Below are positions 7,959 through 25,959 of a stretch of 26,232 nt of DNA, piece after piece. Origin of the DNA: a virus; the IMG/VR virus record IMGVR_UViG_3300017987_000324, positions 1 through 26,232 of that record, one strand, 5' to 3'. The notes under the pieces were generated by a model. The model did no database searches and was not told the origin of the DNA. It saw only the letters and a list, made by a program, of their open reading frames with translations. The first letter of the stretch is position 1. The number at the start of each line of letters is the position of its first letter. The position numbers and the translations under genes are program-made.

Positions 7959-8516
7959 CTATGCTAATGTATTCGGGTTAGTGAACGGAGTTCGATAATA
8001 AACTTTAAGCAGTAACGACACCCCGCCTTTGGGCGTATTGTCACGCTGACCGAAGTGAGCATTCCGTGCCAACATACAGTTGAAGGCAGTTCTATTCCCA
8101 GACGCATCAGGTATCCAATAATTAGTGCCGAAATATTTTTCGATGTCCGCTATGAGTTTTTCTTTTTCAAGAGTCATGTCGTCATAATCATCCAACCATG
8201 CCTCAATCCAAAGGTCAGCCACTTTTTCATACAGATGAGTAGTGTTACTGCCTGGGACAGTGTTCTGGTAAATTTCATCTCCCCAAAGAAGGTCGATGGA
8301 AGGAAATGCTTTACGGTGTGCGAACTCAATCTCTTGGACATTGACTTCGCCAATATCATTGAAGTAGCCATTGGCCTGGCTGATGGTATTTTTTATTCCG
8401 TAGGCGGCGGCCGCTCTGACTTTTTCACGGGCAGATTGTGGGGTAGGCAAGGTCATAGAACCAAACCCATAGGATGTTGATGCTGACGGTGTGCCTGAAA
8501 AACTTATCGTCGCCAT
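7959..8516 (-). CDS. Tail terminator/completion-like protein
   Basis: A 185-residue protein with the general plan of minor tail and tail-terminator proteins: a helical region (REKVRAAAAYGIKNTIS), a strand-rich centre (EVNVQEIEFAHRKAFPSIDL) and a C-terminal strand ending SLLLKVYYRTPF. It lies between the gp10-like neck protein block and the tail tube gene, the usual place for the factor that stops tube growth and joins the tail to the head. Its ATG overlaps the previous stop (TAATG). Identification is by position and fold-like pattern. I see no diagnostic motif, so it could be another neck or completion protein. Confidence 0.65.
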   Translation of the reverse strand: MATISFSGTPSASTSYGFGSMTLPTPQSAREKVRAAAAYGIKNTISQANGYFNDIGEVNVQEIEFAHRKAFPSIDLLWGDEIYQNTVPGSNTTHLYEKVADLWIEAWLDDYDDMTLEKEKLIADIEKYFGTNYWIPDASGNRTAFNCMLARNAHFGQRDNTPKGGVSLLLKVYYRTPFTNPNTLA

Positions 8517-8905
8517 TAACTCTGCCCATTATATACAAGGGATGAAACTTCGACTGTATCCCCAGAAGAAATTGAAAGTGATGTTCCGCCAGCCTCCATG
8601 TCACCACCGCCACCAACTGCAGTCAATGAGCCAGAGGCAACTTCGTTTCTGTCCCGGTCTTGTAATTGAAATTTTGCCGCGGTGCCTGATGCACTGGCAG
8701 TTGCTGATGTTATAGTGTCAGCGGTTGACGCCCCTGCGGCGGCATCGCCGAACGCTGGATTTGATAATAATAGCGTAGCTAAAACGGTATCATCGGATTC
8801 CATTATAACAAGCGCGCCTGTAGGATTGGTCGAACCCTCATCGCACTTATCTACTACGAGATCAATTATCTCGTTGCGTATAGCGATTGGATGGGTGAAA
8901 CTCAT
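8516..8905 (-). CDS. Conserved phage structural protein of unknown function (neck/tail region)
   Basis: A 129-residue protein rich in Ala, Ser, Thr and Gly. It begins with an HPIAIRNEIIDLVVDKCDEG helix and continues as beta strands, with ATLLLSNPAFGDAAAGASTA and AKFQLQDRDRNEVASGSL blocks. I recognise this arrangement (an opening helix, a LATL.LS.PAFG strand, then a Gly/Ser-rich beta region) from small proteins in many siphophage connector regions, but no function is known to me. It overlaps the gp10-like gene's stop by 4 bases and is followed by the tail terminator with a 1-base overlap. Confidence 0.7.
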   Translation of the reverse strand: MSFTHPIAIRNEIIDLVVDKCDEGSTNPTGALVIMESDDTVLATLLLSNPAFGDAAAGASTADTITSATASASGTAAKFQLQDRDRNEVASGSLTAVGGGGDMEAGGTSLSISSGDTVEVSSLVYNGQS

Positions 8906-12023: not shown

Positions 12024-12048
12024 TTTCTCCTTTTTGTTAGTGGATGGA

Positions 12049-13932: not shown

Positions 13933-15635
13933 TTGGCGCTTGAATTCGGCAGCAACAGTTTGCGGAGGATGTTTGTCTCGGAACCAACATTGAGTTTGAA
14001 GAAAGAAAGGAGAGATTCCCCCTCCTCAAGTTTTGTGACCGCATCCTTCGTGCCTGTTGCCGCCCACTTGTCTACCAAATCCTGATAGCGGTTGCGCTGT
14101 CCGATAAAAAATCTTGAGATAATCTGTTTGAGTTTCTTCTCGTCTGGACCTAAGACCTTGCGGGCGTAGTCATCGGCGAACCGTGACCTGTCCTTGTCTG
14201 CCTTATGTATGGCGTCGATATTGGCCATGAGGTTTTCAGCGGCATCTTCAATGCCTTCTTCCGGGGTCTTTTCTTCTTCGTCACCCGGCTCTTCTTCTTC
14301 AACCTCTTCTTCATCGCCCATGGTGTCGGACACTTCAACTGGCTCATCCTCTTCCAATGCCCGCTCAGCAGGGGTCAGGGAGAAGGGCACAAGGCTGGTG
14401 CTCAGCCATGGGTACTGTGCGATGTCCAGATTAAGTTCGAGGCGGCGGTTGATTTCTTCAACCGGGACCAAAAGTTCCGCAAGAGCTTTCGCCTGCTCGA
14501 GCTTTTCTTTGAAATTTGGTTGAAGGGCCTCTACGTTGGATGTATCGGATATAAGCTGGTACTTACCACCTTCTACAAACTGAATCCATTGTGAGTTAAA
14601 CCCTTCAAGTATTCTCCTGTCGTGAGGGAGTAAAGTCTTTGTCCAGAACGCTTTATCAGCAGAAATGGCAGTGGCGAAGTTAACATCTTCATAGACGCTG
14701 ACCTCTGCCTTGGGAACTCTATACACCGCGAGGATTTCATCACGACCCCATTTCTTTTGGTCGATGAACTGCATGTCCTGGTGGGTACGCTGAAACTGTT
14801 GAAACTTTAAACCGGTATGGAGGACAGCCGTCTTGCCGGCATTGTCACTGCCACCGTATGTTTCGTGCCACTGCTTGCGGAGGGCCTTAATCTGGTCGTC
14901 TTCGAGTTCGGCATCAGTCGATAGGGCACCGCCCAGACTGGCATTGTTATCGAAAAAATTCTCATTGACCTGTGATGCCTTAGCGTCCTGCCGCACTGAT
15001 GATGCCGCCGCCATAAGAGGGGACAATCCCTTGAGAGGGTTGTACGGATTATAAAGATTAATCCGAATGACTTCGCTCAAGTCGTAAGGAATTTTTTCGC
15101 CCTTGTCTCCATGTAACATCCATCCTTTCAGCTCTTTCTTATTCGGGCCTCCAAGGATGGGGCGTATGTTTTGATCATTGAAAGGATACAACTCGACCGG
15201 TATCTCACCTTTATGCAGATTTGCCGGCCGCCCTGTACCTGTCTCAGCTATCAAAAAGCACTGCCCACCTTGTGTATTCTTAGTGGGCAGTAGGAGGTTC
15301 AGGATGATGGCTTCCCAGAATGCGGAAGCCGACATGTATGGATTGGGATTATCAAAGACACTGAGTACAGGATGGTCTTCGACTATCTCTTGTTCTTCAG
15401 TGCCTGTAAGGTCAAGCACTTTCGGGAGTTGAACAAGATTGGTAGCTATCGCAGAGACTGCGGCATATACCCACACATGGTTGGCATACGGTTCGTCGGT
15501 AAGGATGTCTTCCCCGGCTTTTAAAACCGTGGACTTAAAAAAGTTTGGGTCGAGATTTGGAAATTGTTTTTCTACCGCCTGACTGAAACTTCTTAATATA
15601 CTACCATCCGCACCATATAAAGTTTTTTCAAACAA
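13929..15635 (-). CDS. Portal protein, HK97 type
   Basis: A 568-residue portal, the ring through which DNA is packaged. Family features include ANHVWVYAAVSAIATNLVQL near residue 51, HPVLSVFDNPNPYMSASAFW (88-107), ANLHKGEIPVELYPF, DLSEVIRINLYNPYNPLKGLSP (186-206), and KWGRDEILAVYRVPKAEV near 295. A strikingly acidic linker occupies about 427-463, with runs of Glu. It is followed by a helical domain to the C-terminus that probably contacts the MuF-like protein. The start is TTG, with GAGG about 10 bases upstream; it overlaps terL by 8 bases, and no nearby ATG in frame would preserve the N-terminus. It follows the terminase genes in canonical order. Confidence 0.93.
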   Translation of the reverse strand: MFEKTLYGADGSILRSFSQAVEKQFPNLDPNFFKSTVLKAGEDILTDEPYANHVWVYAAVSAIATNLVQLPKVLDLTGTEEQEIVEDHPVLSVFDNPNPYMSASAFWEAIILNLLLPTKNTQGGQCFLIAETGTGRPANLHKGEIPVELYPFNDQNIRPILGGPNKKELKGWMLHGDKGEKIPYDLSEVIRINLYNPYNPLKGLSPLMAAASSVRQDAKASQVNENFFDNNASLGGALSTDAELEDDQIKALRKQWHETYGGSDNAGKTAVLHTGLKFQQFQRTHQDMQFIDQKKWGRDEILAVYRVPKAEVSVYEDVNFATAISADKAFWTKTLLPHDRRILEGFNSQWIQFVEGGKYQLISDTSNVEALQPNFKEKLEQAKALAELLVPVEEINRRLELNLDIAQYPWLSTSLVPFSLTPAERALEEDEPVEVSDTMGDEEEVEEEEPGDEEEKTPEEGIEDAAENLMANIDAIHKADKDRSRFADDYARKVLGPDEKKLKQIISRFFIGQRNRYQDLVDKWAATGTKDAVTKLEEGESLLSFFKLNVGSETNILRKLLLPNSSAK

Positions 15636-17199
15636 TGTTAAAAGTCCTCTTCGGCTGTTTGCGGGCTTGCCACGCTATGCCCCAAGCAAAAATTGAGTCA
15701 TCGTGTTGTCCCTTATCCGCTTCATATTTTCCGCCAGTGTCTACGAAAGTTTTGCATTCTGCAATGAAAACTGTATCATTCACTTGAATGAATCTCTCTT
15801 CCATTGCCTCATTTAGCTCATCTAGTAAAATAGGTCTGGTCTGGGCCGTGGTCAACCACCCAGGTCGTTTTTCTTTCACCGGCTTACCAAACTTATTTTT
15901 ATCGAGCGTGCGGATGTGGTAATAAATCTGGCGGTAGCCGATGCTGTTGAGCGCCGTATTCATAACGGAATGGCCATGGTTGTTGAGTTCTGGGGCAAAA
16001 ATAGCATCGTTATATTTCCGGCATAGCTCAATGCACTTCCGGGCGAACACTTCCGGCCGCCACTTCCCGCGGAGGACAGCCGCCTGGTTCCCGGTCTTTT
16101 TATTCAGAATGGCGCACACCGAGTTGTCCGATGTAGGGTTCCCCTCCGCGGCATCAGCGCCTGCCACATACTCCTCGTCCTCGCCAGGCTCTTCCCACAC
16201 AGTCAGAGATTCTCGTAAGTGCTTAACCGGTAGCGTCTTAGATGATATATCGTCCAACATCTCCGAGTCAAAAAACTGAAGGCCCCTGACCACGAATGCC
16301 TGTTCCCATGTTTCCGGGTATTCCTGCTGAAATAATTTTTTTCGTTCCTTCTTCTTATCCCTCCGCCATAGCATTTGTCCTATAGAGAGCTCAAAGCGCT
16401 CCATGATGTGCTTCTCTTCATCGGTTATGGTTTCTAAAAATTCTGAAGATGTCTCAGAAGTAGGTTCAATTATATTATTCCCATCTATATACCATGGATA
16501 GAACAGGGGAATCCAATTGTTTTCGCCGGCCATCGCCTCTTTGAAGTTCTCATAAAACCAACCTTGGGCACCGTTGGCAGTGGTTTCCAAAACAACCTCA
16601 CCGTGCCTTGCCGCTTCCGTGAACCCGGCCGCCAGGTTTTCAATGTCGTCGTAGGCACCTTGCCACCATGCAACCTCCGAACCGTGAAACCGGTACAGGT
16701 TGTCGCCGCGGCTGAAGGCCTTTGAGCCAGCAGTCCCCACATGAAAGTAAGTGCCGAGCGATGGAATTTCGATATGGCTCTGAGATTCCCTTGGCGAATA
16801 CTGCAGGCGGGTATCAAGATGAAGCATCAGCAATACCATGCGAAAAATCATCTTGGTGTTCTCTCGAGTGTCAGCGACTGTGGCACATGTGACATGTGGC
16901 GAAGTTACGGTCGCCCGATAGGAGAGTGCCTGCTCCCAAGTCGTAAGGCCGGCGCGTCTACTTTTCAGCAAAAGGAAATGAGGTTTGCGCCCTTCCTTTC
17001 TATAGCGCTCCTTCAACGCCTGATGCTTTAGTTGGACATTGTTTGGGACGAGAGAAACGATTGAGCTGTATAAGTTACGAATCTTCACACGCAGGTTAAA
17101 AAATTCTGCAACCGGATACGCCTTAACCTCTCGTGATGTGAGGTACGCCTCTATTGCTCTCTCGACTGTGTCACCAATGCGAAATTGTGGTTGCTTCAT
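15628..17199 (-). CDS. terL: Terminase large subunit
   Basis: This 523-residue packaging motor and nuclease translocates DNA into the prohead and cuts it. The ATPase half has an adenine-binding/Walker A-like segment LLLKSRRAGLTTW (residues 76-88), a Walker B-type strand LYRFHGSEVAWW with Glu175, and the coupling motif ETTANG (205-210). The RNase H-like nuclease half has candidate acids Asp349 in GADAAEGN, Glu404 in APELNNHG and Asp500/501 in KGQHDDSIFA. The ATG overlaps the TerS stop (ATGA). The Shine-Dalgarno is weak, which suggests coupling to TerS. Confidence 0.95.
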   Translation of the reverse strand: MKQPQFRIGDTVERAIEAYLTSREVKAYPVAEFFNLRVKIRNLYSSIVSLVPNNVQLKHQALKERYRKEGRKPHFLLLKSRRAGLTTWEQALSYRATVTSPHVTCATVADTRENTKMIFRMVLLMLHLDTRLQYSPRESQSHIEIPSLGTYFHVGTAGSKAFSRGDNLYRFHGSEVAWWQGAYDDIENLAAGFTEAARHGEVVLETTANGAQGWFYENFKEAMAGENNWIPLFYPWYIDGNNIIEPTSETSSEFLETITDEEKHIMERFELSIGQMLWRRDKKKERKKLFQQEYPETWEQAFVVRGLQFFDSEMLDDISSKTLPVKHLRESLTVWEEPGEDEEYVAGADAAEGNPTSDNSVCAILNKKTGNQAAVLRGKWRPEVFARKCIELCRKYNDAIFAPELNNHGHSVMNTALNSIGYRQIYYHIRTLDKNKFGKPVKEKRPGWLTTAQTRPILLDELNEAMEERFIQVNDTVFIAECKTFVDTGGKYEADKGQHDDSIFAWGIAWQARKQPKRTFNIV

Positions 17200-17738
17200 C
17201 TTTTAATATTCACCGGAATGGATTCCAGGTTAATAGTATTGAGTTCATCCCTTACCTCTTGCCCGAATAAGCGAAGAGTTTCAGGGTCCTTGATATGTTT
17301 AATGGCAACAGCGGCGACCTTCTCAGCCACGTCATCTATTATCCGGTGATTGACATTAACCGTCACTTCCTTTGAGAACTCGTGCTTAAACTTTCGCTCG
17401 AGCCACCACTGCGATGCCTTGTTACCTTGCTGTCCCTTGACGACATGAGAACGCTTGCTCCTCAGAGCCCTCTCTTCAACTGCATAGCGAAAGTTACAAT
17501 AGTTGGTCCGGTACCAATGGTTGACCGTAGCAAATGGCATCTTTAAAATACCCGCCGCATCCTCAAGAGTCACGCCGGCGAATACGTTATCAAGAATGAC
17601 GGTGACAATTGGCTCCAGAAATCCTGTAGCCGCCTGTTCCTTTTCACTCGGGTAGTAAAGCTCTTGCGGTGTTACCGCTGGGACTAACGCACTGACTGAG
17701 TTCTCAAGCTGGTCGCTAACCACATCACCTTCTGCCAA
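17196..17738 (-). CDS. terS: Terminase small subunit-like protein
   Basis: A 180-residue protein placed directly before terL and predicted to recognise packaging DNA. Residues about 45-80 form a helix-turn-helix (VTLEDAAGILKMPFATVNHW). The segment KGQQGNKASQWWLERKFKHE with the following FSKEVTVNV strand is typical of small terminases. The start is a TTG with GGAG 8 bases upstream. This start makes it overlap the radical-SAM gene by 55 bases, and no internal ATG precedes the HTH. The overlap physically links the modification cassette to the packaging genes. Confidence 0.85.
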   Translation of the reverse strand: MAEGDVVSDQLENSVSALVPAVTPQELYYPSEKEQAATGFLEPIVTVILDNVFAGVTLEDAAGILKMPFATVNHWYRTNYCNFRYAVEERALRSKRSHVVKGQQGNKASQWWLERKFKHEFSKEVTVNVNHRIIDDVAEKVAAVAIKHIKDPETLRLFGQEVRDELNTINLESIPVNIKR

Positions 17739-18625
17739 TCTTTCATCTCCGGTTCACTGTTAAAAATAAATTCCTCAATGTTATAGCCAGGCCTCTTGGG
17801 ATAAACTTTGAATCCATTGACCAGCTTTGAATAAAAATTTGCCTGAGCTAGGTCAATAATCTCGAACTCTTCCTGAAGAAGAGAAGACGGCACAAAGGTT
17901 GGCTTGGTACGGGCCACTTCGCCTGACGTGTAGGCACCATCTGCAGGTGCGCCGTATGGATAGTAAAATTGACCTGGCGAATACCACAGACCATTGTTAA
18001 AATGGATGGGCCTGTTCATTGACCGCGTCTTCATCCACTCAGCGTTTTCAGCTATGGTCGCCTTCGTCTCTCCTTCGAGCAAAGTCATGTTGAGGTAGCA
18101 TATCTCGATTGGCCCTGTCTGCAAATCTTTCTTGCCCACCTTACGGTATAGGCAAATGTTTTCAAGACCTATCTCGAGGACACGGCAACCGCATTCATAC
18201 AAAAACTTGGCTCCATACATATCAAGCATGCGCTGGACATTTTTATATGTGCTCATCGCCAGCCACTTGACCCTGTTTTCTTTCAGGAGGAGGAGAGCAT
18301 TTGTTATCTCACTGTGGGCGAAGAAATCTTCGTCTATAAAATGCACACACTCGTCTTTATACTTGGGGATGATGACCCGCGGGTCCCCTTCAACTCTACT
18401 GCCTTTGTGCTCAGCGGCTGTGGGACAGAAGGCGCATTTATTATGACACCCCATAGACATCATGGCCGGCATGGCATGGGTGTATGGGTATACATGCAAG
18501 TCAGCGTCAGGCGTTTTCCAAAATGGATTTTCTTCCTGCACCTCCCTGAACTGCTCAATGGGAATAGCACCACGCTTCAAGGCGTTCACCCAATAGTCTA
18601 CCGGCGGCATTAATCCTATCTTCAT
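17684..18625 (-). CDS. Radical-SAM protein at the end of the modification cassette
   Basis: A 313-residue enzyme with the [4Fe-4S] motif CxxxCxxC at Cys60, Cys64 and Cys67 (SMGCHNKCAFCPTA). It also has an ECVHFIDEDFF strand and VLEIGLENICLY, both in keeping with a radical-SAM barrel. The 55 residues before the cluster are a partial N-terminal region, and the C-terminal part (from about 200) is Tyr/Phe/Pro-rich. The substrate is unknown. It sits last in the preQ0/DpdA operon, overlapping the methyltransferase-like gene by 4 bases, which suggests a shared pathway. It is not QueE, which is present separately. It could modify the base further, or act on RNA or protein. Confidence 0.85.
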   Translation of the reverse strand: MKIGLMPPVDYWVNALKRGAIPIEQFREVQEENPFWKTPDADLHVYPYTHAMPAMMSMGCHNKCAFCPTAAEHKGSRVEGDPRVIIPKYKDECVHFIDEDFFAHSEITNALLLLKENRVKWLAMSTYKNVQRMLDMYGAKFLYECGCRVLEIGLENICLYRKVGKKDLQTGPIEICYLNMTLLEGETKATIAENAEWMKTRSMNRPIHFNNGLWYSPGQFYYPYGAPADGAYTSGEVARTKPTFVPSSLLQEEFEIIDLAQANFYSKLVNGFKVYPKRPGYNIEEFIFNSEPEMKDWQKVMWLATSLRTQSVR

Positions 18626-19035
18626 GGATGCACCAATACCCAGTCTTCGCCGTCTTCAGTTACGATTGGGCGTATCTCATGTGTGTACCCAAACTCTTCA
18701 GCCATATCTAGCTCGCCGTGTCCGCAAAGTATTCCTTCCGGCCGAACACTGTCCCACCACGAGGCTATTAAATTACGAGTAGGTTCGTGTATGTATATAA
18801 AGTCAACCGAGCCATCGTCAAACAGCTCACCAGCTTCATACACATTCTCCCAGATGTTAACAGATGTTGGGAACCGGTCAAGCTCTTCGCCTATGCGGTA
18901 CAACTTACGCCCGTTCCAATGGTGTAACATTTCATTGGCGAAGTCTCTGTCCTTTGGTCCCAGTTCAACCGCCCTCTTCTTCAACCCCATCAGCACGGCG
19001 AGATTGATTATGTCGAGTCTTGTCTTTAATAGCAT
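18622..19035 (-). CDS. Degenerate SAM-methyltransferase-like protein
   Basis: A 137-residue protein that looks like a small Methyltransf_24-type Rossmann domain. Residues 22-34 (AVELGPKDRDFAN) occupy motif I, SVDFIYIHEP (76-85) the acidic strand, and VRPEGILCGHGEL (97-109) the following loop and strand. The glycine pattern of motif I is poor: the expected second glycine is Asp or Arg, and the usual acidic ribose-binding strand reads LYRIGEEL. SAM binding is therefore doubtful. It may be an inactive partner or a repurposed fold. AGGA lies 5 bases before the ATG. It overlaps the radical-SAM gene (ATGA). Confidence 0.65.
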   Translation of the reverse strand: MLLKTRLDIINLAVLMGLKKRAVELGPKDRDFANEMLHHWNGRKLYRIGEELDRFPTSVNIWENVYEAGELFDDGSVDFIYIHEPTRNLIASWWDSVRPEGILCGHGELDMAEEFGYTHEIRPIVTEDGEDWVLVHP

Positions 19036-19036
19036 G

Positions 19037-19909
19037 TTATCCTATAAGGTTGAAAAATTCTGCGCGCTGTGCGGCATCATCTCTAAACGAACCAATCAAC
19101 GCGCTGGTTTTCATCACACTGTTCTGTTTTTGAACGCCTCGTCCGCACATACATAAGTGCTTGGCTTCGACTACAACGCCGACACCTCGGCATCCTTTGA
19201 CATGTTTGAATATGGCATCGGCTACCTGACGGGTCATGGTTTCCTGTATCTGGAGTCTGCGAGCGTATATCTCTACGAGACGCGCCAGCTTCGATAGGCC
19301 AACCACAAACTTCCCTGGCAGGTAGCCGATATGAACTTGACCATGGAAAGGAATCATGTGGTGCTCACATGTTGAATAAAATTCTATCCCCTTGCAGATG
19401 ACCATCTCATCGCTTTTCGTTTCAAAGATTTTTGAAAGAACTTCCTTGGGGTCCTTCTTATATCCACCGTAAACCTCCTTCCATGAACGCACCACCCTGG
19501 CAGGGGTTTCAAGAAGACCGGACCGGCTGGGGTCATCACCTATGTGCTCAATGACTCTGGTGATAAGTTTCTCAGCGTCGCTTTCCTTGCTAGTCTCCCA
19601 TGGAAACACTATCCAGAAATCCTGGTTCTCGAATGGCGCATAGAATGGCTTACCGAACCTCTCTATGTACTCGTCTCGCGTCTGTCCGCTGTCAATAACA
19701 TCGTCCACGATGATGTCTGCCATCTCGGGACCATCTCCATTGTGTAGTTGGCGTGCCAGCCCCAAGCTGTCGAGGATGTATGCAATGAACCAGCCTCCCC
19801 TTGGCACACCATAGACAATTGGCTTCTCCTTGCCTCCTGTGGCATGCGGGAATGTGCGGGACAATATGCTTTCCAGTTCTGTTATGCTTACTCTAATTAT
19901 ATTTCTCAT
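19037..19909 (-). CDS. folE: Phosphoribosyltransferase-GTP cyclohydrolase I fusion
   Basis: A 290-residue two-domain protein. Residues about 1-105 resemble a purine-type phosphoribosyltransferase: IVYGVPRGGW (31-40) and the PRPP loop DDVIDSGQT (69-77). Residues about 110-290 are a complete GTP cyclohydrolase I, which makes dihydroneopterin triphosphate from GTP, the first step to preQ0. It has LLETPARVV, Zn ligands in CEHH (Cys181, His184) and HLCMCGRGV (near Cys253), GLSKLARLVEIYARRLQIQE and GSFRDD. FolE alone is usually about 180-220 residues. The ATG overlaps the queE stop (ATGA). The fused PRTase may recycle guanine released by DpdA into GMP; this is inference. Confidence 0.93.
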   Translation of the reverse strand: MRNIIRVSITELESILSRTFPHATGGKEKPIVYGVPRGGWFIAYILDSLGLARQLHNGDGPEMADIIVDDVIDSGQTRDEYIERFGKPFYAPFENQDFWIVFPWETSKESDAEKLITRVIEHIGDDPSRSGLLETPARVVRSWKEVYGGYKKDPKEVLSKIFETKSDEMVICKGIEFYSTCEHHMIPFHGQVHIGYLPGKFVVGLSKLARLVEIYARRLQIQETMTRQVADAIFKHVKGCRGVGVVVEAKHLCMCGRGVQKQNSVMKTSALIGSFRDDAAQRAEFFNLIG

Positions 19910-20460
19910 GCTATGCCTATGATTTTATGTGTCTGCAGTGACAGTCCCCAGTCGGGGTTCATCTTTACCATGCCTATACATTCGGCAAGGTTGTTTCGGT
20001 TGTACTCAGGTTGAAGGTAGTAGTGGTCAAACTCAGTGCCCTGATAATACTCCTCAAGATTTTCAGCCCCAGTGTATACCAGCTTGAGCTCGTTACCTTT
20101 TCTCACTTTGAAGTCAGGTGTCTTCGGGCTAACCGTCACCCACGCCTTGTTGAATATATCGCTTTCAATTGTGCCGTTGGTTTCTATGAACATGCGGTAT
20201 CCATGCGCCTTTAACTTGCATGCCAATGCCATGTCGAATTGGAGGAGTGGCTCTCCGCCAGTAAGTACAATGTTTCGGCACTGATAGGCCATGACCTCTT
20301 TGTATATATCATCGAACCCCATCTCAAACTTAACCTCATGGTTTGTGTCGCACCATTGGCAGTTAAGATTGCATCCGGCGAAGCGAATGAACAAAGCGGC
20401 CATGCCTGAGTTAGCTCCTTCCCCCTGGATGGAGTAGAATATTTCGTTGAGCTTATACAT
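19906..20460 (-). CDS. queE: 7-carboxy-7-deazaguanine synthase (QueE)
   Basis: A radical-SAM enzyme converting 6-carboxytetrahydropterin to 7-carboxy-7-deazaguanine, the ring-contraction step to preQ0. It shows NEIFYSIQGEG at the N-terminus, the CNLNCQWCD cluster motif (CxxxCxxC), LTGGEPLLQ, and ETNGT followed by SPKT and LKLV strands. From the ATG at 20458-20460 it is 184 residues. An upstream ATG at 20476-20478 adds six residues but increases overlap with queD, and neither start has a strong Shine-Dalgarno. I prefer the shorter form because family members begin close to NEIF. It overlaps queD by 8 bases and folE by 4. Confidence 0.95.
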   Translation of the reverse strand: MYKLNEIFYSIQGEGANSGMAALFIRFAGCNLNCQWCDTNHEVKFEMGFDDIYKEVMAYQCRNIVLTGGEPLLQFDMALACKLKAHGYRMFIETNGTIESDIFNKAWVTVSPKTPDFKVRKGNELKLVYTGAENLEEYYQGTEFDHYYLQPEYNRNNLAECIGMVKMNPDWGLSLQTHKIIGIA

Positions 20461-20797
20461 AGGGATTGCCCGCTTCATAGATGGCTACGTTATTCGATGA
20501 CTCAATCACTTTTGCCTTCCAACATTCCGGCACTGTCTCCGTTATCCACTTGGCGATGTTCTCGGCAGTGGGGTTGAATGGCAGCATCTCATTGAGATGT
20601 TTATGGTCGAGCACGCCATGTACAAGGTCTTTGAGTTTCTTGAAGTCAATCACCATGCCATACTCGTCTACCATTTCCGCTTTGCAGTATACAGTGATTA
20701 TCCAGTTGTGGCCATGCACTCTTCCGCATGGGCTGTCATAAGGTAGGTTGAGCTGGTGTGAGCCAGCCAACTCGAATGTCTTTTCGATATAATACAT
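20453..20797 (-). CDS. queD: 6-carboxy-5,6,7,8-tetrahydropterin synthase (QueD)
   Basis: A 114-residue T-fold enzyme that converts dihydroneopterin triphosphate to 6-carboxytetrahydropterin. Zn ligands are His14 (AGSHQL), His28 and His30 in CGRVHGHNW; Cys24 is the catalytic cysteine. DHKHLNE (64-70) and PTAENIA (77-83) are the standard QueD/PTPS signatures, and Glu99 in VIESSNN anchors the pterin. The length is normal. AGGAGG stands 4 bases before the ATG, the best ribosome binding site inside the cassette. It follows the glycosyltransferase gene with only an 8-base gap. Confidence 0.95.
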   Translation of the reverse strand: MYYIEKTFELAGSHQLNLPYDSPCGRVHGHNWIITVYCKAEMVDEYGMVIDFKKLKDLVHGVLDHKHLNEMLPFNPTAENIAKWITETVPECWKAKVIESSNNVAIYEAGNPYV

Positions 20798-20805
20798 ACA
20801 TCCTC

Positions 20806-21675
20806 CTATAAGAATGAGTTGTCAATAGAACCAATAAATTGCTGTAGCTTATTGTAGAGGTGGCGACATACTGACGCCCTCCCCTTCATTGAGCGAGTGA
20901 CGGCCCAGTCTATGCACGATATGTAATTAGGGCCGCGGAAATAAACCTCGGGCAAGCTCCGTCCATATATCTCGGGATAGCATAGCCCGTCTACCATCAC
21001 TGGGATGACCCCGTTCTGTATGCACTCGATAACACTGATGCCCAATGTCTCTTTGCGCGCTGGAAAAACTGAGCACCTGTAACGGCGTAGCATTTCGATG
21101 TATCTATCCTTGGATGTGTTCCCCTCTTCCAAACGCAGGCACTCAATCCCTGGCACACCCTTCACCACGTCATACCCTTTGTCCTCAGAAAGGCGGCCGG
21201 TAAAACACACATCACCAGACTTAATCCACTCAGTGGTAGGTGGGATGCTATAGTCGATGTATGGAAAGGCCGTAACCCTCACATTAGTTAAGTGAGGATA
21301 CTTGGCAAGGATGAGGTCCTTATGCCATTGAGTGGCAACGAATATCTTTTTATAGAGTGGGAAGTTCTCCAACTCAATCGCCTCAGCCTCGGCGTTGCCA
21401 TAATCAAAGTCATAGGGCTCATAGCTTCCGCCGTGAGCGAAGCCGTACACATCACCATCCAATTGAGTGATGTCCATACGGCATATATCAGTAACGATAT
21501 ATTCGCTCGAAGGCGGAGCTGTCATGGGTGTGGCTTCTTTGAGTTCATCAATCCAGTTATGGTCATACCCTATTAGCCTCTGGAAGATAGCGGTGTCAAC
21601 ATGCTTGAGCAAGCGCCTTGCAAAATAAGCTGACCAATTCGTCTCAGTGTAAAATGGAACGATCAGACATTTCAT
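20806..21675 (-). CDS. GT-B (GT4-like) glycosyltransferase coupled to the DpdA gene
   Basis: A 289-residue protein with a GT-B layout. The N-terminal Rossmann-like half includes VDTAIFQRLIGYDHNWIDEL and KKIFVATQWHKDLILAKYP. The linker FPYIDYSIPP is followed by VCFTGRLSEDKGYDVVKGV (156-174). The donor-site EX7E motif is Glu209 and Glu217 in ETLGISVIEC, within SVFPARKETLGIS. It is shorter than typical GT4 enzymes (about 350-400), with small linker regions. The ATG overlaps the dpdA stop (ATGA), so the two products are made together. A role in glycosylating modified DNA is inferred from this coupling; cell-surface or virion glycosylation is an alternative. Confidence 0.85.
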   Translation of the reverse strand: MKCLIVPFYTETNWSAYFARRLLKHVDTAIFQRLIGYDHNWIDELKEATPMTAPPSSEYIVTDICRMDITQLDGDVYGFAHGGSYEPYDFDYGNAEAEAIELENFPLYKKIFVATQWHKDLILAKYPHLTNVRVTAFPYIDYSIPPTTEWIKSGDVCFTGRLSEDKGYDVVKGVPGIECLRLEEGNTSKDRYIEMLRRYRCSVFPARKETLGISVIECIQNGVIPVMVDGLCYPEIYGRSLPEVYFRGPNYISCIDWAVTRSMKGRASVCRHLYNKLQQFIGSIDNSFL

Positions 21676-22538
21676 TGTAGTAAACTCCTGTACTTCTTAT
21701 AGTCAAAATATTGACCGTCCTTGCTATCAAGAACAGCCATGAGATGTTTCCAATACGCCCCGCTGTCGGCTAGATGTATGTATCGGTCATAGCACCGAGC
21801 ATAGTCAGAGGAAGCATTGAGATATGCGTTCATTGAGTAGGCGCATGAGAATGCCTTGGCCCCTACAGTTAGTTGCTTGTTTTGGATGAGCTCCTTCGCG
21901 TTGGTGTTACATTTACCAGCCGCCTCAACCAGCTCCATGCTGGGACCATTCCTCTTGATAAAAGACGCTATCATATTGAATTTCTTTTTCCGATAGTCAT
22001 ACTCTACCACGCGCCCATACTTGGACCCTGAGATAAAGGTGCTTGAATCGGCCGAGTAGATAGGGAGCTTCAATATGCCAGGCAGTTGGACATAGGCTAA
22101 GGCGTGTATCTTAATGTCCTTGAACGTATACTTTGCCATGCGGCATCGGTAAAGGAAATCAGCTCTATCTCTTCGGCCGCCTGATATACATACATACTTA
22201 TTGCTGTTCTCATAGTACCAGCGAAAGTCTTCGATGCTGTCACCCTCTATCCATATAGGGATAGGCTCTAGGCCGGCGTCCAGCATAGCCTTGTAGTTAT
22301 CCTTGCTCTTAGCTGGTGATCGGATAACGTCCAGCATGATGTACTTATCAGTGTACTGCTTTATCTGCTTACAAAAAGCTATGTACTCTTTCACTGTGAT
22401 GTTGGCACCACACTTATAAGCAGTGAAGGCCCCTGAGTCAATCATTAGGTTGACCCGGTCGGCGTTGTCCAATATTTCATTGAACGTCTTGCCCGCCTGC
22501 TTGGCGTACCAATACGATATGAGATAGCTAGGCTTCAT
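21672..22538 (-). CDS. dpdA: DpdA-like DNA guanine transglycosylase (TGT-fold)
   Basis: This 288-residue protein is predicted to swap guanine in DNA for preQ0, as DpdA does. The sequence follows a shortened tRNA-guanine transglycosylase barrel. LMIDSGAFTAY carries Asp34 in the place of TGT's DSGGFQ. Asp70 in IMLDVI and CISGGRRDR (near 117-124) correspond to base-recognition loops. Asp164 in YSADSSTF is the candidate nucleophile, matching the S-x-D-S pattern of phage DpdA proteins. It is shorter than tRNA TGT (about 370 residues) and lacks the cysteine cluster that binds zinc there. It overlaps queC by 11 bases; its ribosome binding site is weak. Substrate is inferred from context. Confidence 0.88.
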   Translation of the reverse strand: MKPSYLISYWYAKQAGKTFNEILDNADRVNLMIDSGAFTAYKCGANITVKEYIAFCKQIKQYTDKYIMLDVIRSPAKSKDNYKAMLDAGLEPIPIWIEGDSIEDFRWYYENSNKYVCISGGRRDRADFLYRCRMAKYTFKDIKIHALAYVQLPGILKLPIYSADSSTFISGSKYGRVVEYDYRKKKFNMIASFIKRNGPSMELVEAAGKCNTNAKELIQNKQLTVGAKAFSCAYSMNAYLNASSDYARCYDRYIHLADSGAYWKHLMAVLDSKDGQYFDYKKYRSLLQ

Positions 22539-23190
22539 AGACAGTAGGGTCCTTCACCCCAGCCAGTTGGAACGCTTCCCTTCTCTCTACGCATGCACCA
22601 CACTTGCCACAGTGAACGTACTTACCCTTATAGCATGTCCATGTATACTTGAACGGAACTTCAAGTTTATCGCCCAGCTTGACTATGTCAGCTTTACTCA
22701 TGCCAAGGAACGGTGCTTTAATAGCTACTATGTCGCTGGTCCCTAATTTGACAGCCCTGTCCATAGCATGTATGTATTCAGCTCTGCAGTCAGGATAAAC
22801 AGCGTGGTCCCCGCCATGTGCCCCTATATAGACACTGCTCATACCATTGTTATCAGCATAGCCCGCGGCTATTGATAGCATGATGCCATTCCTGAAAGGA
22901 ACGATAGTATCTATCATGGTAGGTGACTCGTAGTGGCCCTCCGGTATAGGACCTCCGTCCGCCATCAGCGCTGATTGGCTTATAGCCGGCATGAAGTCGA
23001 GCGGGATAACCATTCGGTCAACATCGGCCACCGCACAGATAGAGGTTGCATGTATGGCCTCTTGGATGTTGTGCTTTGAACCATAGGTAAAGCTAATAGC
23101 TGTGACCTTGTGCCCCTCCTTGAGGAGCTGATAAAGCAGGACGGTAGAGTCGATACCGCCTGAGTGTATAAGCACTACATTCTCAGACAT
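22528..23190 (-). CDS. queC: 7-cyano-7-deazaguanine synthase (QueC)
   Basis: A 220-residue enzyme that turns 7-carboxy-7-deazaguanine into preQ0 with ATP and ammonia. The N-type ATP pyrophosphatase P-loop SGGIDS is at 10-15. FTYGSKH, DTIVPFRNGIMLSIAAGYA (94-112), IGAHGGDHAVYPDCR and the C-terminal zinc site with Cys186, Cys194, Cys197 and Cys200 (in CYKGKYVHCGKCGACVERR) are all present. It is a plain QueC with no fused amidotransferase domain. The ATG overlaps the ParB-like gene by 8 bases. The whole family signature is intact. Confidence 0.97.
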   Translation of the reverse strand: MSENVVLIHSGGIDSTVLLYQLLKEGHKVTAISFTYGSKHNIQEAIHATSICAVADVDRMVIPLDFMPAISQSALMADGGPIPEGHYESPTMIDTIVPFRNGIMLSIAAGYADNNGMSSVYIGAHGGDHAVYPDCRAEYIHAMDRAVKLGTSDIVAIKAPFLGMSKADIVKLGDKLEVPFKYTWTCYKGKYVHCGKCGACVERREAFQLAGVKDPTVYEA

Positions 23191-23752
23191 TGACTGTTAT
23201 CCCTTCGTCAGGCCACGTCCCTTCTATCATGCCACGGATGGAGGTCAATACATCGTCGTATAAAGCGTGGTTGGTTACGACCACTTTAATCTCATAGGGT
23301 TTTAGCCCTGGGTTCTCCGGTGGTGTTTCTTCATCTTCAAAGTTAAAGTCTGGAACCTCCAGCTCATTGAGCAGTAAGCTCATCTTCTCTTCGTCTTCCA
23401 TCTCTTCAAGAATAGCTTGGAGCTTTTCATTATCCCAGTCGCCTGTTATCCCTGTATAGTTAAGCGCTACATTCAGCGCCTTCTCTTTCACTTCAGGAAG
23501 ATCGACTACGATAACATCTGTCTCTTCGACGCCCTTGCGAGTAAGGTCATACAAGCGCTGGTGCCCACCGACTATCACACCGGTGCGCTTATTCCAGATG
23601 ATGGGCTGAACCAATCCGAATGTATCTATTGAATTGCTCAATCCTTCCCGCGCCTTGTCAGTCATTACTCTAGGATTGTATCCAGCCGGCTTCAGCTCGG
23701 CTATGTTCATCCTCTGCATATCGACCAGCCCCAGCTTACTTTTATCTTCCAC
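23183..23752 (-). CDS. ParB/sulfiredoxin-fold protein at the head of the modification operon
   Basis: A 189-residue protein. Residues about 15-110 form a ParB N-terminal-like domain: MNIAELKPAGYNPRVM, IDTFGLVQPIIWN, and the nucleotide-binding VIVGGHQRLYDL (59-70). The C-terminal part is acidic and helical and then beta-like (EIKVVVTN). There is no helix-turn-helix as in partition ParB. The start is a GTG with AGGAGG 4 bases upstream; internal ATGs at residues 12 and 15 are possible alternatives. It lies just downstream of a putative promoter. Small ParB-like proteins commonly neighbour phage DNA-modifying enzymes, and the bacterial Dpd system needs DpdB beside DpdA in some cases. A helper role for DpdA is inferred. 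Confidence 0.82.
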   Translation of the reverse strand: MEDKSKLGLVDMQRMNIAELKPAGYNPRVMTDKAREGLSNSIDTFGLVQPIIWNKRTGVIVGGHQRLYDLTRKGVEETDVIVVDLPEVKEKALNVALNYTGITGDWDNEKLQAILEEMEDEEKMSLLLNELEVPDFNFEDEETPPENPGLKPYEIKVVVTNHALYDDVLTSIRGMIEGTWPDEGITVNV

Positions 23753-23777
23753 GCTTCCTCCTATGGTTGTCTTTCAA

Positions 23778-23805
23778 GATATAGAATAAGAACCTCATTG
23801 GTCAA
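23778..23805 (-). promoter_or_regulatory. Putative sigma70-type promoter for the modification operon
   Basis: On the minus strand, TTGACC (23805-23800) is separated by 16 bases from TATATC (23783-23778). The -35 has five of six consensus bases and the -10 four of six. Transcription would start around 23771, giving a leader of about 20 bases before the GTG of the ParB-like gene. A half-dyad TTCAAGAT (23774-23781) overlaps the -10. This matches the full dyad at 23941 and could be a repressor contact. The promoter is predicted from sequence only. Confidence 0.45.
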
Positions 23806-23836
23806 GCAACTCACCGTTTTTTCACTCCCCAAATAC

Positions 23837-23845
23837 TTATCCACA
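23837..23845 (+). other. Perfect DnaA box
   Basis: TTATCCACA matches the strongest E. coli-type DnaA binding site exactly. It is followed after five bases by a looser TTTTCACAC-type sequence and lies about 130 bases from a very AT-rich tract, an arrangement seen at DnaA-dependent origins. A single 9-mer can occur by chance, so its meaning depends on the context. Confidence 0.45.
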
Positions 23846-23917
23846 ATTTTCACACATCTTTTCCCTAATTTTTGCAAAGTAGATTGCCCTACCGCCGCTC
23901 ACACCATACATGGCATT

Positions 23918-23930
23918 TTTAGCGCCTAAA
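23918..23930. promoter_or_regulatory. Interrupted palindrome TTTAGCGCCTAAA
   Basis: TTTAG and CTAAA arms flank a 3-base centre. The site lies inside a wider, weaker inverted pair, AAGTAGAT at 23877-23884 and ATCTACTT at 23935-23942. It is operator-like in size, and no specific regulator is known. Confidence 0.3.
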
Positions 23931-23940
23931 GACCATCTAC

Positions 23941-23955
23941 TTCAAGATTATTGAA
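23941..23955. promoter_or_regulatory. Operator-like dyad TTCAA-N5-TTGAA, copy 1
   Basis: TTCAA GATTA TTGAA is a perfect 5-bp dyad with a 5-base centre. With the adjoining ACATA it forms a 19-base unit that recurs, inverted and with two mismatches, at 24159-24177. Paired sites like this usually bind a dimeric repressor; the small HTH protein encoded at 25301-25462 is one candidate, purely by proximity. Confidence 0.45.
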
Positions 23956-23970
23956 CATATATAGTGGGAC

Positions 23971-24080
23971 AGTAGTTAATTATAATATTATTATTAATCA
24001 TTATTATTAATGAATACACTACAGTTACCCCAGTTTACTAATTTTAAAATTATAACTCTCTTTTAAAGAAAAAAATTAAT
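23971..24080. other. Extremely AT-rich tract with duplicated ATTATTATTAAT
   Basis: Two adjacent copies of ATTATTATTAAT occur around 23987-24011 within a run nearly devoid of G and C, followed by TAATTTTAAAATTA and an A-rich stretch. This could be a DNA-unwinding element or an UP-type or intrinsically bent sequence. No open frame of note crosses it. Confidence 0.5.
24039..24052. repeat. 14-bp perfect palindrome TAATTTTAAAATTA, copy 1
   Basis: TAATTTTAAAATTA is self-complementary and occurs twice in this region. Including flanks, 24038-24055 and 24267-24284 are an exact 18-bp inverted repeat. The pair frames most of the upstream half of the control region and could be protein binding sites or arms of a larger cruciform. 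Confidence 0.45.
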
Positions 24081-24126
24081 GGCGTTTTTTGCCTAAATAC
24101 ATCGACTGCAGTTCCAAATCACTAAT

Positions 24127-24138
24127 GTTAATATTAAC
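24127..24138. promoter_or_regulatory. 12-bp palindrome GTTAATATTAAC
   Basis: A perfect dyad lying just downstream, in minus-strand sense, of an orphan Shine-Dalgarno-like AGGAGGGGG at about 24150. It has operator-like size and symmetry, but the cognate protein is unknown. Confidence 0.35.
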
Positions 24139-24162
24139 ACAAAAATATGACCCCCTCCTATG

Positions 24163-24177
24163 TTCAATTATTTTGAA
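24163..24177. promoter_or_regulatory. Operator-like dyad TTCAA-N5-TTGAA, copy 2
   Basis: TTCAA TTATT TTGAA repeats the dyad at 23941-23955 in inverted orientation, including the TATG flank (19-base unit, two mismatches). Two spaced copies within 220 bases make a chance origin less likely and suggest cooperative binding or looping. Confidence 0.45.
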
Positions 24178-24197
24178 ACAGATGGCCCCTGAGCTCC

Positions 24198-24228
24198 CCA
24201 AAGACAGAAACAGCCCTCCGTAGAGGGC
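24198..24228 (-). terminator. Intrinsic terminator with C(UACG)G tetraloop closing the accessory block
   Basis: On the minus strand GCCCTC-TACG-GAGGGC forms a 6-bp GC-rich stem (24228-24213) capped by an UNCG-class loop with the favoured C-G closing pair. It is followed by the T-rich TGTTTCTGTCTTT. It lies 50 bases past the stop of the last upstream gene and before the control region, the expected place for a terminator. The tail is interrupted by G and C, so efficiency may be moderate. Confidence 0.6.
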
Positions 24229-24269
24229 CGTATCCATCAACTTTTTAAGGGGTAGTCAAACCCGTTTTA

Positions 24270-24283
24270 TAATTTTAAAATTA
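24270..24283. repeat. 14-bp perfect palindrome TAATTTTAAAATTA, copy 2
   Basis: The second copy of the palindrome at 24039-24052. It overlaps the TAA stop (24281-24283) of the zinc-ribbon gene. The duplicated 18-bp unit is inverted relative to copy 1. Confidence 0.45.
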
Positions 24284-24520
24284 GCGGCTCTTACCGCCAT
24301 GGTGGATTCGACATCGTTTTTTCTGAGTGGGAAGGGCCATGGACCCGGCCAGAATCCGACGCCGGCTCTCGGCCGAATCAGTCCTCGGCGGCATGCCGGC
24401 CAGACAGCTCACGCACAAATAACACCCGCACTCGGCCTGGGCCATCTCCACGCCAACCAGCTCTGCCCCCTCTACCGTGTACCCGCACATGTCGCACGTC
24501 GCCACTTTTTTCTCTGCCAT
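24281..24520 (-). CDS. Small zinc-ribbon-like protein
   Basis: A 79-residue protein from the ATG at 24518-24520. It has CDMCGY near the start and CGCYLCVSC about 22 residues later; the CxxC...CxxC pairs fit a zinc-binding ribbon. The C-terminus is basic (ESRRRILAG, KKRCRIHHGGKSR). The ATG overlaps the previous stop in a TGATG junction, with GAGGAG upstream; an in-frame GTG lies one codon earlier. A small Zn-ribbon with a basic tail could bind nucleic acid, but no function is known. It is the last gene before the control region. Confidence 0.72.
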   Translation of the reverse strand: MAEKKVATCDMCGYTVEGAELVGVEMAQAECGCYLCVSCLAGMPPRTDSAESRRRILAGSMALPTQKKRCRIHHGGKSR

Positions 24521-24933
24521 CACTCCTCCTCATGGGTTAAGTCCGGGCACTCAGCTATCACTTTCGCCCTCATCACGTCATAGTTTCTTTTACATTCCGC
24601 ATGAATCCATCCGGGCCCGCGGTTGTGATATTCATCCACCGACTTCCAGCACTGGGGGTGGCGCATGGCCAGTTCCAGGCACCGCTTTAACGCGGGCATG
24701 GGCCGGTCCAATGTTCCAAAGGGCATGCCGGAAGCATAGTCCCCATCAATCCCGGTCCGGGCGATGATGGTGGGCTCTATCTTGCCTGGACAGTAATAGT
24801 AATCAGTGGCGCGGGCCTCCTCGGCCGTCCCGCGGATTTCACTGCCTAAATAAATACACCCGTCGCAGTCATGCGGATGAAACGGCTCCCACCGGCCAGG
24901 CCGGTTGTCATAGGTATTGAACACTCCAGTCAC
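24520..24933 (-). CDS. Cys/His-containing phage protein of unknown function
   Basis: About 137 residues from a GTG at 24931-24933, set by AGGAGG 4 bases upstream. The frame can be read from an ATG at 24990, but that would overlap the previous gene by 56 bases and has no better ribosome site. The core PHDCDGCIYLGSE plus YYYCPG and later HPQCWKS and HAECKRNY give a scatter of Cys and His that could bind metal. I associate the DCDGCIYLG...YYYC pattern with small accessory proteins of phages and plasmids, but I know no function. It is encoded between two other cysteine-rich proteins. Confidence 0.72.
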   Translation of the reverse strand: MTGVFNTYDNRPGRWEPFHPHDCDGCIYLGSEIRGTAEEARATDYYYCPGKIEPTIIARTGIDGDYASGMPFGTLDRPMPALKRCLELAMRHPQCWKSVDEYHNRGPGWIHAECKRNYDVMRAKVIAECPDLTHEEE

Positions 24934-25300: not shown

Positions 25301-25462
25301 TTACTCAATCATCTTCCTGATTTCTTTTGCCACTCTCCATCTATCCACGCCCAACAACTCGCCTATGTCTGCCATTGAATAATTAAAAGTTGTGTACCAA
25401 TACAAAATTTTCTTCCGGTCTTCGTCGGTGAGTATGCGGGTCTTTGAACCTTTGGGCCTCAC
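25301..25462 (-). CDS. Small helix-turn-helix protein (GTG start, 53 aa)
   Basis: This short gene starts with GTG at 25460-25462, overlapping the radical-SAM stop (GTGA). GGAGG stands 4 bases upstream, and the gene ends at TAA 25301-25303. It reads VRPKGSKTRILTDEDRKKIL, then YWYTTFNYSMADIGELLGVD, then RWRVAKEIRKMIE. The last 26 residues form a clear helix-turn-helix (SMADIGELLGV as first helix and turn, DRWRVAKEIRKM as recognition helix), as in resolvase or homeodomain-like DNA-binding proteins. It is tightly packed between its neighbours. It may regulate phage transcription, with the dyads at 23941 and 24163 as possible targets, but that link is speculative. Confidence 0.78.
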   Translation of the reverse strand: MRPKGSKTRILTDEDRKKILYWYTTFNYSMADIGELLGVDRWRVAKEIRKMIE

Positions 25463-25959
25463 TCGTCCTCCTCGACGCATCTCATAAATACTTCGTCTTT
25501 GGGTAGTGGGCAGTTTTCAATCCATTCGATATTATCTTTCACCGCCCATCCTTTTGGGATTTGTGATATATAAACGCCTTTGAATATATTCACCCGCAGG
25601 CTTCGCTTTATACCATTCGTGAAACTGGCAAATGCTTTGAAAGGCAATACATCTCTCTGGGTGTGAAGAGTTATGGTTATCCCGTCCAGGGCGTTCAATA
25701 AATCAATCGACTCATTAATCCGATACTTCACCATGGCCGTATATAAATATATCTCGGCCTTGCTCTCCCTCCTTATGTCGCGGATGACGCTATGCACACG
25801 GTCAACATATAGCATCGGCTCGCCACCGGTCAGCATAATTTCGCTGTAAGGCGAATAGTCCACGCAGTAGGGAAGGTCCTTCAAGTTCCACTGCTTATTG
25901 CAACAACCCTGGCAGTTACGGTTGCAATCTTCCCAAAGCAAAAGTCTCAGCTTACTCAT
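25459..25959 (-). CDS. Compact radical-SAM protein
   Basis: A 166-residue protein with Cys12, Cys16 and Cys19 in WEDCNRNCQGCC and the SAM-binding IMLTGGEPML (GGEP at 45-48), then strands AEIYLYTAM and GITITLH. It is only slightly more than half a usual radical-SAM barrel, like QueE or NrdG-type activases. It lacks QueE's N-terminal IQGEG motif, and a bona fide QueE is encoded elsewhere. It overlaps the upstream gene's stop (ATGA), with GGAGG 8 bases before the ATG. The substrate is unknown. Confidence 0.82.
   Translation of the reverse strand: MSKLRLLLWEDCNRNCQGCCNKQWNLKDLPYCVDYSPYSEIMLTGGEPMLYVDRVHSVIRDIRRESKAEIYLYTAMVKYRINESIDLLNALDGITITLHTQRDVLPFKAFASFTNGIKRSLRVNIFKGVYISQIPKGWAVKDNIEWIENCPLPKDEVFMRCVEEDE

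Follow-up and report, generated by a model that had tools for sequence, protein, structure and literature searches.

The virus record IMGVR_UViG_3300017987_000324 from IMG/VR, analysed here over its whole length of 26,232 bases (the window), carries a cassette of nine open reading frames (ORFs) on the minus strand, spanning positions 17684-23752, in which genes for a 7-deazaguanine DNA modification are combined with a gene for a glycosyltransferase (GT). In minus-strand order the genes encode a ParB-like protein, QueC, DpdA, the GT, QueD, QueE, a fusion of a phosphoribosyltransferase (PRT)-like domain with FolE, a protein of 137 residues and a radical S-adenosylmethionine (radical-SAM)-type protein (Table 1). 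The cassette lies directly upstream of the small and large terminase genes, with portal, head and tail genes next. The record is classed as linear, and because of this it is probably a fragment. According to the ORF coordinates, neighbouring genes of the cassette overlap by up to 26 nt or are separated by up to 8 nt; the overlap is 4 nt at dpdA/GT, at queE/folE and between the genes for the 137-residue and radical-SAM proteins. Scored against the codons used in eight further genes of the same phage, frame 0 is positive for all nine ORFs (+0.12 to +0.29), and the other two sense frames are negative in every case. The cassette is confirmed to be one tightly packed minus-strand operon.

Table 1. 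Features of the cassette and its flanks, in minus-strand order; positions refer to the window.
Feature	Position	Strand	Evidence or remark
ORF-poor region upstream of the operon, expected place of the promoter	23753..24280	-	no long ORF over about 500 bases
ParB-like protein, 189 aa	23183..23752	-	PF02195 26.8 bits (cut-off 26.3); PHROG 620 E 6.5e-35; GTG start after GGAGG
QueC, 7-cyano-7-deazaguanine (preQ0) synthase, 220 aa	22528..23190	-	PF06508 219.3 bits and TIGR00364, both over cut-off
DpdA, DpdA1-like guanine transglycosylase, 288 aa	21672..22538	-	PHROG 887 (queuine tRNA-ribosyltransferase) E 1.9e-29
GT4-type glycosyltransferase, 289 aa	20806..21675	-	start overlaps dpdA stop by 4 nt
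QueD, 6-carboxytetrahydropterin synthase, 114 aa	20453..20797	-	PF01242 92.3 bits, over cut-off
QueE, 7-carboxy-7-deazaguanine synthase, 190 aa	19906..20478	-	radical SAM PF04055 48.8 bits, over cut-off; CNLNCQWC
PRT-FolE fusion	19037..19909	-	PF01227 232.3 bits on residues 113-289; TIGR00063 over cut-off; CEHH
Orphan ORF, 137 aa, coding	18622..19035	-	0 families in Pfam, PHROGs and NCBIfam at the thresholds used
Radical-SAM-type protein, orphan, 313 aa	17684..18625	-	CX3CX2C (CHNKCAFC) at residue 60
Terminase small subunit (TerS)	17196..17738	-	PHROG 4102 E 6.3e-5; downstream edge of the operon
Terminase large subunit (TerL)	15628..17199	-	PHROG 2 E 9.5e-21

A preliminary description of this DNA had reported intact FolE, QueD, QueE and QueC signatures and a DpdA-like protein with the fold of tRNA-guanine transglycosylases (TGTs), all in one operon, and both statements are borne out. 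The four pathway proteins exceed the cut-offs of their Pfam families and carry their motifs, SGGIDS in QueC, CNLNCQWC in QueE, CEHH in FolE and a Cys preceding HGH in QueD. Together, FolE, QueD, QueE and QueC convert GTP to preQ0. QueC has no Gat domain and is 47% identical to its counterpart in Arthrobacter phage Sonali. Against the NCBIfam equivalogs, QueD reaches 83.2 bits (TIGR03367, cut-off 89.25) and QueE 151.6 bits at E 2.5e-44 (TIGR04508, cut-off 240), both under the cut-off. FolE is preceded by an N-terminal domain which the preliminary description had overlooked: residues ∼1-105 are PRT-like (PF00156, only 13.5 bits) and residues 113-289 form the GTP cyclohydrolase I. This fusion aligns over its full length with proteins of JG054, MMDA13 and ply2008005c, is covered to at least 80% by 33 of 392 matching phage records, and also occurs in Nipunavirus-type and other phages. 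In the GT cluster of phage PA5oct a separate PRT-like ORF was recognized by eye (E 0.011 to the PRT-like domain of the window). By profiles and motifs, FolE, QueD, QueE and QueC are all encoded in the window, as in the phage preQ0/DpdA sets that form the second group of Hutinet 2019. No match to ArcS, QueF/QueF-L or Gat-QueC is present in the cassette of this 26-kb, probably fragmentary record; the earlier remark that QueF, DpdC and an amidotransferase are missing is thus valid for the record, but does not extend to the whole phage.

DpdA carries the motifs DSGAF at residue 34 and DSS at residue 164, and all 11 aligned phage DpdAs, the window protein included, share its catalytic residues D34, H145 and D164. 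A TGT match is absent from the Pfam and NCBIfam scans. At E 1e-5 DpdA matches 172 phage records, all at less than 60% identity and none covering 80%. If H145 is taken as the equivalent of His 196 in phage 9g, a residue lacking in DpdA2, the window protein would be a DpdA1 and not a DpdA2. The CxCx2C motif, which is typical of tRNA TGTs, is not present in the window DpdA.

The ParB-like gene had been regarded as foreign to the known gene sets, a view that does not hold. Such a gene precedes dpdA in the phages CRB2, Sour, Sonali and Finch, and it lies at most 400 bases from dpdA in 46 of the best 80 virus loci, out of at least 505 relatives, retrieved with a DpdA profile; 48 ParB-like ORF hits in these loci are adjacent to dpdA and two lie elsewhere. 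In the window, queC is located between the two genes. The CRB2 paper (PMC6392294, excerpts) states that DpdB, a member of the ParB superfamily, generally accompanies DpdA and that CRB2 ORF1 could be its homologue. The ParB-like protein is therefore a known dpdA companion and not new, and is the probable phage counterpart of DpdB. The phage proteins listed as its matches belong to the ParB-like type in general, and many carry a methyltransferase annotation. In eight contigs (L042, L049, L050, L052, L057, L074, L088 and L089) the module contains two dpdA-profile ORFs, and in three of these (L052, L088 and L089) also two ParB-like ORFs, which suggests paired insertion enzymes.

The closest arrangements among named phages are those of CRB2 (Mycobacterium) and Sour (Gordonia), which contain ParB-dpdA-queC-queD-queE-folE followed by the terminase, i.e., the same kinds of genes in nearly the same order at the same site; in Sour a single small ORF separates queD from queE. 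The same six-gene run as in CRB2 is found at another genome site in Arthrobacter phage Sonali and Rhodococcus phage Finch. Compared with CRB2 and Sour, queC and dpdA are swapped in the window, FolE bears the PRT-like domain, and the GT, the 137-residue ORF and the radical-SAM gene are added. According to the consulted parts of Hutinet 2019 (PMC6884629), CAjan and Rosebush encode FolE-QueD-QueE-QueC-DpdA and no amidotransferase, dPreQ0 was measured in both phages, and its presence in CAjan DNA requires dpdA. By analogy with these two phages the product of a CRB2/Sour-type module would be dPreQ0. The earlier proposal that a self-sufficient preQ0 pathway plus DpdA should place 7-deazaguanine in the phage DNA agrees with the same gene set, and by this analogy a 7-deazaguanine in the DNA of the window phage is very likely. 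The bacterial Dpd system (DpdA, DpdB, DpdC) resembles the window in its TGT-like DpdA and ParB-superfamily partner (excerpts of PMC12839542 and PMC6392294), but differs in that the window, in this fragment, shows no DpdC or restriction genes, encodes its own preQ0 synthesis and has the GT. The combination of pathway, DpdA and ParB-like protein is already known; the main finding here is the GT.

In sequence searches the GT falls just short of the cut-off of PF00534 (25.9 against 26.4 bits). A PDB search with the single sequence returned nothing credible, a four-sequence GT profile found 8xsg at E 0.0026, and a 66-sequence profile gave no match at E 1. The AlphaFold2 model was based on a 66-sequence alignment (A7; the window protein and 65 distinct sequences of 73 GT ORFs of at least 300 residues) and has a predicted local distance difference test score (pLDDT) of 74.6 and a predicted template-modelling score (pTM) of 0.78, with residues 28-42 and 48-51 being poor. 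Structural comparison (Foldseek, VIA-align) matches the model to GT4 retaining enzymes with a GT-B fold, including 6eji (Z 18.1), MshA (3c4q, 17.9), BshA (17.6) and PimA (17.2), and, further down, the tetrahydrobiopterin glucosyltransferases 5zes (15.7) and 9v0l (15.6). Several of the matches are tied, and donor and acceptor are therefore not readable from them. All 78 aligned sequences have the two glutamates of the EX7E motif, E209 and E217. With the GT-B fold of the model and the EX7E motif both present, the protein is, as modelled, a member of the GT4 retaining family. In a tree of the family the distances are very long and the window GT is not placed. A resemblance to the tRNA-queuosine mannosyltransferase (QTMAN) finds no support: none is among the 50 listed fold matches, and PF12038 is silent in the window, as it is in 14 control genomes.

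The genomic surroundings of its relatives connect the GT to 7-deazaguanine genes. Of 50,697 phage records, 14 match the GT at E 0.01, including those of the P. aeruginosa phages PA5oct, Cassandra and Paride. Four of the 14 records, from three genera, were opened (PA5oct, Cassandra, ACP17 and Phosso), and in all four the GT lies in a 7-deazaguanine cluster; in ACP17 and PA5oct the gene immediately before it has the TGT-like signature DSGG[LF]Q. With a profile of four GTs at least 444 relatives were found in virus contigs, and 79 of the best 80 loci contain FolE, QueD, QueE or a TGT-like gene (profile E 1e-3), the TGT-like gene being present in 70 and FolE in 60. The sole locus without any of these genes, on the 5.4-kb contig L135, contains the GT and h405, a gene family described below. 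In contrast, 7-deazaguanine genes occur in one of 80 control loci, the best of at least 547 relatives found with terminase large subunits, and this one is the sibling contig L202; the controls comprise less DNA per locus (mean 8.7 kb versus 12.8 kb for the GT loci). A second control, 14 loci of an unrelated HxsC-like radical-SAM protein of the window, gave one weak QueE match. Scans of viral contigs with the single DpdA, radical-SAM and GT proteins, in which exact 8-residue stretches are needed, returned no relatives and so exclude close relatives only. The initial guess that the GT is a passenger was overturned by the named-phage and virus loci taken together with the controls. The preliminary description had further suggested that the final base could be new; this gains support for the GT, but not for the 137-residue and radical-SAM proteins.

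All 68 TGT-like ORFs of the GT loci have the motif DSGG[FYL]Q. A profile of 30 of these (alignment A8), searched against the PDB up to E 1, retrieved 39 matches, all tRNA-guanine transglycosylases and all weak (E 0.04 to 0.83), and its comparison with the DpdA1 profile (hhalign) gave E 1.6e-5 and a probability of 78.8 over DSGG/DSGA and the later S-x-D-S. One contig (L102) has two GT-profile matches in one cluster, at 7653-8681 and 11614-12615 (E 3e-112 and 4e-8), perhaps for two sugar transfers.

The GT family thus occurs with two gene sets. The clusters of PA5oct, ACP17, Phosso and the contigs L102-L181 share with the window the GT with EX7E and homologues of FolE and QueE, but contain the DSGG[FYL]Q TGT-like protein and h405, without QueC or the DpdA1 profile. 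h405 is a ∼125-residue relative of the QueD fold (hhalign probability 95.4, E 1.7e-8). It may be the 7-carboxy-7-deazaguanine (CDG) decarboxylase DpdL. It is found in 69 of the best 80 GT loci, none of which matches the QueC or DpdA1 profile, and in 64 of the 73 loci with a GT ORF of at least 300 residues it is no more than 1.5 kb away from the GT. Conversely, the best 80 DpdA1 loci have QueC in 62 and h405 in none, with one weak GT match (L029, E 7.6e-4). When whole records were searched for the QueC family, partial matches appeared in 3 of 26 GT contigs (E 1e-7 to 4e-4, summed score over the cut-off) and none in ACP17, PA5oct and Phosso (0/3), whereas both DpdA1 records used as positive controls matched fully at E 2e-56 or better.

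The two sets meet in the window, which combines the GT with DpdA1 and QueC, and in L202 (IMGVR_UViG_3300012346_000267, a 56-kb contig), which combines it with DpdA1 and h405. L202 is 58% identical to the window in TerL, 59% in FolE and 43% in ParB, and is ordered ParB-DpdA-h405-GT-142-aa ORF-QueD-QueE-PRT.FolE-TerS. ParB, DpdA, GT, QueD, QueE and PRT.FolE are thus shared at the same site; since the same GT occupies the same place, it has been kept here in a related phage. Unlike the window, L202 has h405 and, in its whole record, no match to the QueC Pfam family; its locus has no match to the 137-residue or radical-SAM protein, and the whole record none to the radical-SAM protein in a search that had no positive control.

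In view of these observations, we favour with moderate confidence the interpretation that the cassette is a CRB2-type 7-deazaguanine DNA-modification operon to which a dedicated GT that sugars the base has been added. FolE, QueD, QueE and QueC would make preQ0 from GTP, and DpdA, probably assisted by the ParB-like protein, would replace guanines in the phage DNA by preQ0. The GT, whose gene overlaps dpdA, would move a sugar from a nucleotide sugar to the 7-deazaguanine, either in DNA or prior to insertion. The GT is kept in the sibling and in most of the distant clusters, where a QueD-fold protein occurs and QueC is missing; the sugar may therefore be attached at a site that the two bases share, and not to the C7 nitrile, so that the acceptor of the GT may be something the two 7-deazaguanines have in common. 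The likely benefit is a stronger shielding against restriction. Transfer of sugar to a 7-deazaguanine is supported by the strong genomic linkage described above, as far as gene content can indicate it. The chances are about even for the wider proposal that a cluster-tied GT4 family produces sugar-bearing 7-deazaguanine in phage DNA in two chemistries, one with QueC and one with the QueD-fold protein without QueC, in long-tailed phages like that of the window and in jumbo phages such as PA5oct and Phosso.

Several observations weigh against this interpretation. The window GT is divergent, being only 19-28% identical to its 65 relatives, and it is shorter (289 residues) than the GTs of L202 (325) and of ACP17, PA5oct and Phosso (342-363). 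The window has no h405 match at E 0.01 in its incomplete record, versus 69 of 80 GT loci. PreQ0 carries no hydroxyl at C7, and GT4 enzymes have many acceptors, tetrahydrobiopterin included, as 5zes and 9v0l illustrate. The linkage itself is loose in parts: QueE occurs in only 46 and QueD in only 15 of the best 80 GT loci. In the 73 loci the TGT-like gene is at most 100 bases from the GT in 11, at most 1.5 kb in 25 more, farther away in 29 and not found in 8, so that the link is to the cluster and not always to the neighbour. Moreover, because three of the four GTs from which the profile was made come from such clusters, members of the family elsewhere may be under-sampled. Finally, linkage between genes is an association only, and does not show the acceptor.

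It is unlikely that the operon is a plain dPreQ0 system of the Rosebush/CAjan type, in which the GT, the 137-residue protein and the radical-SAM protein are unrelated passengers. Its core gene set is indeed the one shown to yield dPreQ0 (PMC6884629, excerpts), and the 137-residue and radical-SAM proteins have neither phage relatives at E 1e-5 nor a counterpart in the L202 locus. The GT, on the other hand, is non-randomly placed, with 79/80 virus loci and 4/4 named-phage loci against 1/80 controls, and stands at the same place in L202.

The 137-residue and radical-SAM genes are unexplained additions to the operon. For the 137-residue protein the best match in the phage collection is at E 0.8, and as no family matches it, its earlier label "methyltransferase-like" was given by eye only. 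The radical-SAM label finds support in the CHNKCAFC motif, but the score against PF04055 (16.8 bits) is below the cut-off of 29.5. Nothing in the phage collection matches the radical-SAM protein, and scans of viral and genome contigs, which required exact 8-residue stretches, gave no close relative; its structure prediction is unusable (pLDDT 35.4). PDB sequence searches with both proteins gave nothing credible. Extra genes also occur in other DpdA1 modules, in which 72 of 80 in-module and 66 of 156 flanking ORFs were scanned and the first 25 of 50 and of 39 families, respectively, were considered. Among the matches listed, the in-module ORFs comprise DUF6884 (7), YaaA-type (4) and phosphoribosyltransferase (4) matches, at least three methyltransferase domains and one radical-SAM match, and the flanking ORFs comprise five vitamin-uptake transporters and one match to a methyltransferase Pfam family.

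These two genes could also tailor the base, for instance by methylation or radical rearrangement, to give a multiply modified 7-deazaguanine, an extension that we regard as doubtful. They are coding and belong to the same operon, with a 1-nt gap and a 4-nt overlap at their junctions, and the DpdA1 modules just described hold methyltransferase (at least 3/72 in-module, 1/66 in flanks) and radical-SAM (1/72) ORFs. A natural-product cluster unites the same elements. The huimycin cluster huiA-huiG of Kutzneria albida contains queC, queD, queE and folE homologues, a methyltransferase and a GT, the latter proposed to put N-acetylglucosamine on a methylated preQ0 base (PMC7439116, excerpts). By its gene content it is the closest chemical precedent for preQ0 with a methyltransferase and a GT; unlike the window it makes a free antibiotic nucleoside and, as described there, is without dpdA. 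Against such tailoring, no profile backs a methyltransferase in the 137-residue ORF, neither gene matches the L202 locus, the radical-SAM protein has no match in the whole L202 record in the search without a positive control, and no recurrent link is seen.

Sugar transfer to a soluble pterin or 7-deazaguanine intermediate, giving a free glycoside instead of a DNA base, appears improbable. Cyanobacterial BGluT acts on tetrahydrobiopterin. FolE and QueD make pterins, the two tetrahydrobiopterin enzymes are among the fold matches, and h405, with its QueD fold, is no more than 1.5 kb from the GT in 64/73 loci, while QueE occurs in only 46/80. However, many GT4 enzymes that use acceptors of other kinds score above the two pterin enzymes, and the TGT-like gene in 70 of 80 GT loci points to a 7-deazaguanine in nucleic acid. 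It is very improbable that the system modifies host tRNA in a queuosine-like manner and not phage DNA: TGT-fold enzymes do act on tRNA in cells and the pathway genes also yield queuosine precursors, but the window DpdA is devoid of CxCx2C and can be aligned to phage DpdAs, dPreQ0 in CAjan DNA requires dpdA, and the ParB-like partner goes with DpdA1. It lies near dpdA in 46/80 DpdA loci; no ORF of the 80 GT loci has ParB as its best match, and among the 80 terminase loci only L202 has such an ORF.

Glycosylated bases are known on the pyrimidines of T4-type phages. If the GT does sugar the 7-deazaguanine, the cassette would provide a purine counterpart, and anti-restriction shielding would be wider than known. 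It would also put a name to a testable enzyme family with at least 444 virus relatives and 14 named phage records, and a GT beside FolE/QueE and a TGT-like gene would be a simple marker for such phages. The 2021 jumbo-phage survey (PMC7824862) records a deazaguanine synthesis and incorporation system in PA5oct, and its consulted parts contain no link to the GT. Among the papers listed in the literature search, none connects a glycosyltransferase with 7-deazaguanine in phage DNA, and the novelty is provisional.

Some further features were observed in the DpdA1 modules of other contigs. DUF6884 and YaaA-type ORFs occur inside phage modules (e.g., L082, 5451-6398); YaaA is given as the Pfam family of bacterial DpdC (PMC12839542, excerpts). 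A 330-residue ORF without a Pfam match lies between folE and dpdA in L047 (6946-7935), and L063 has a match to pyridoxal-phosphate-dependent enzymes within its 7-deazaguanine module (6259-7089).

With respect to the flanks of the operon, the mechanically assigned TTG start of TerS results in a 55-nt overlap with the radical-SAM gene, and TerL is 58-66% identical to those of L094, L201 and L202. Over positions 17000-24600 promoter-like matches show no excess (11, versus a shuffle mean of 11.6), whereas terminator-like matches do (15, versus 6.1 in shuffles). A terminator-like GC hairpin at 24231-24210, followed by a T-rich tail, lies at the upstream edge of the pre-operon region. A second small radical-SAM protein is encoded at 25459-25959 on the minus strand and is a relative of Bacteroides crAss-like phage proteins annotated as HxsC-like; it is matched by 37 phage records, the best at 35% identity, and has relatives in 14 virus contigs.

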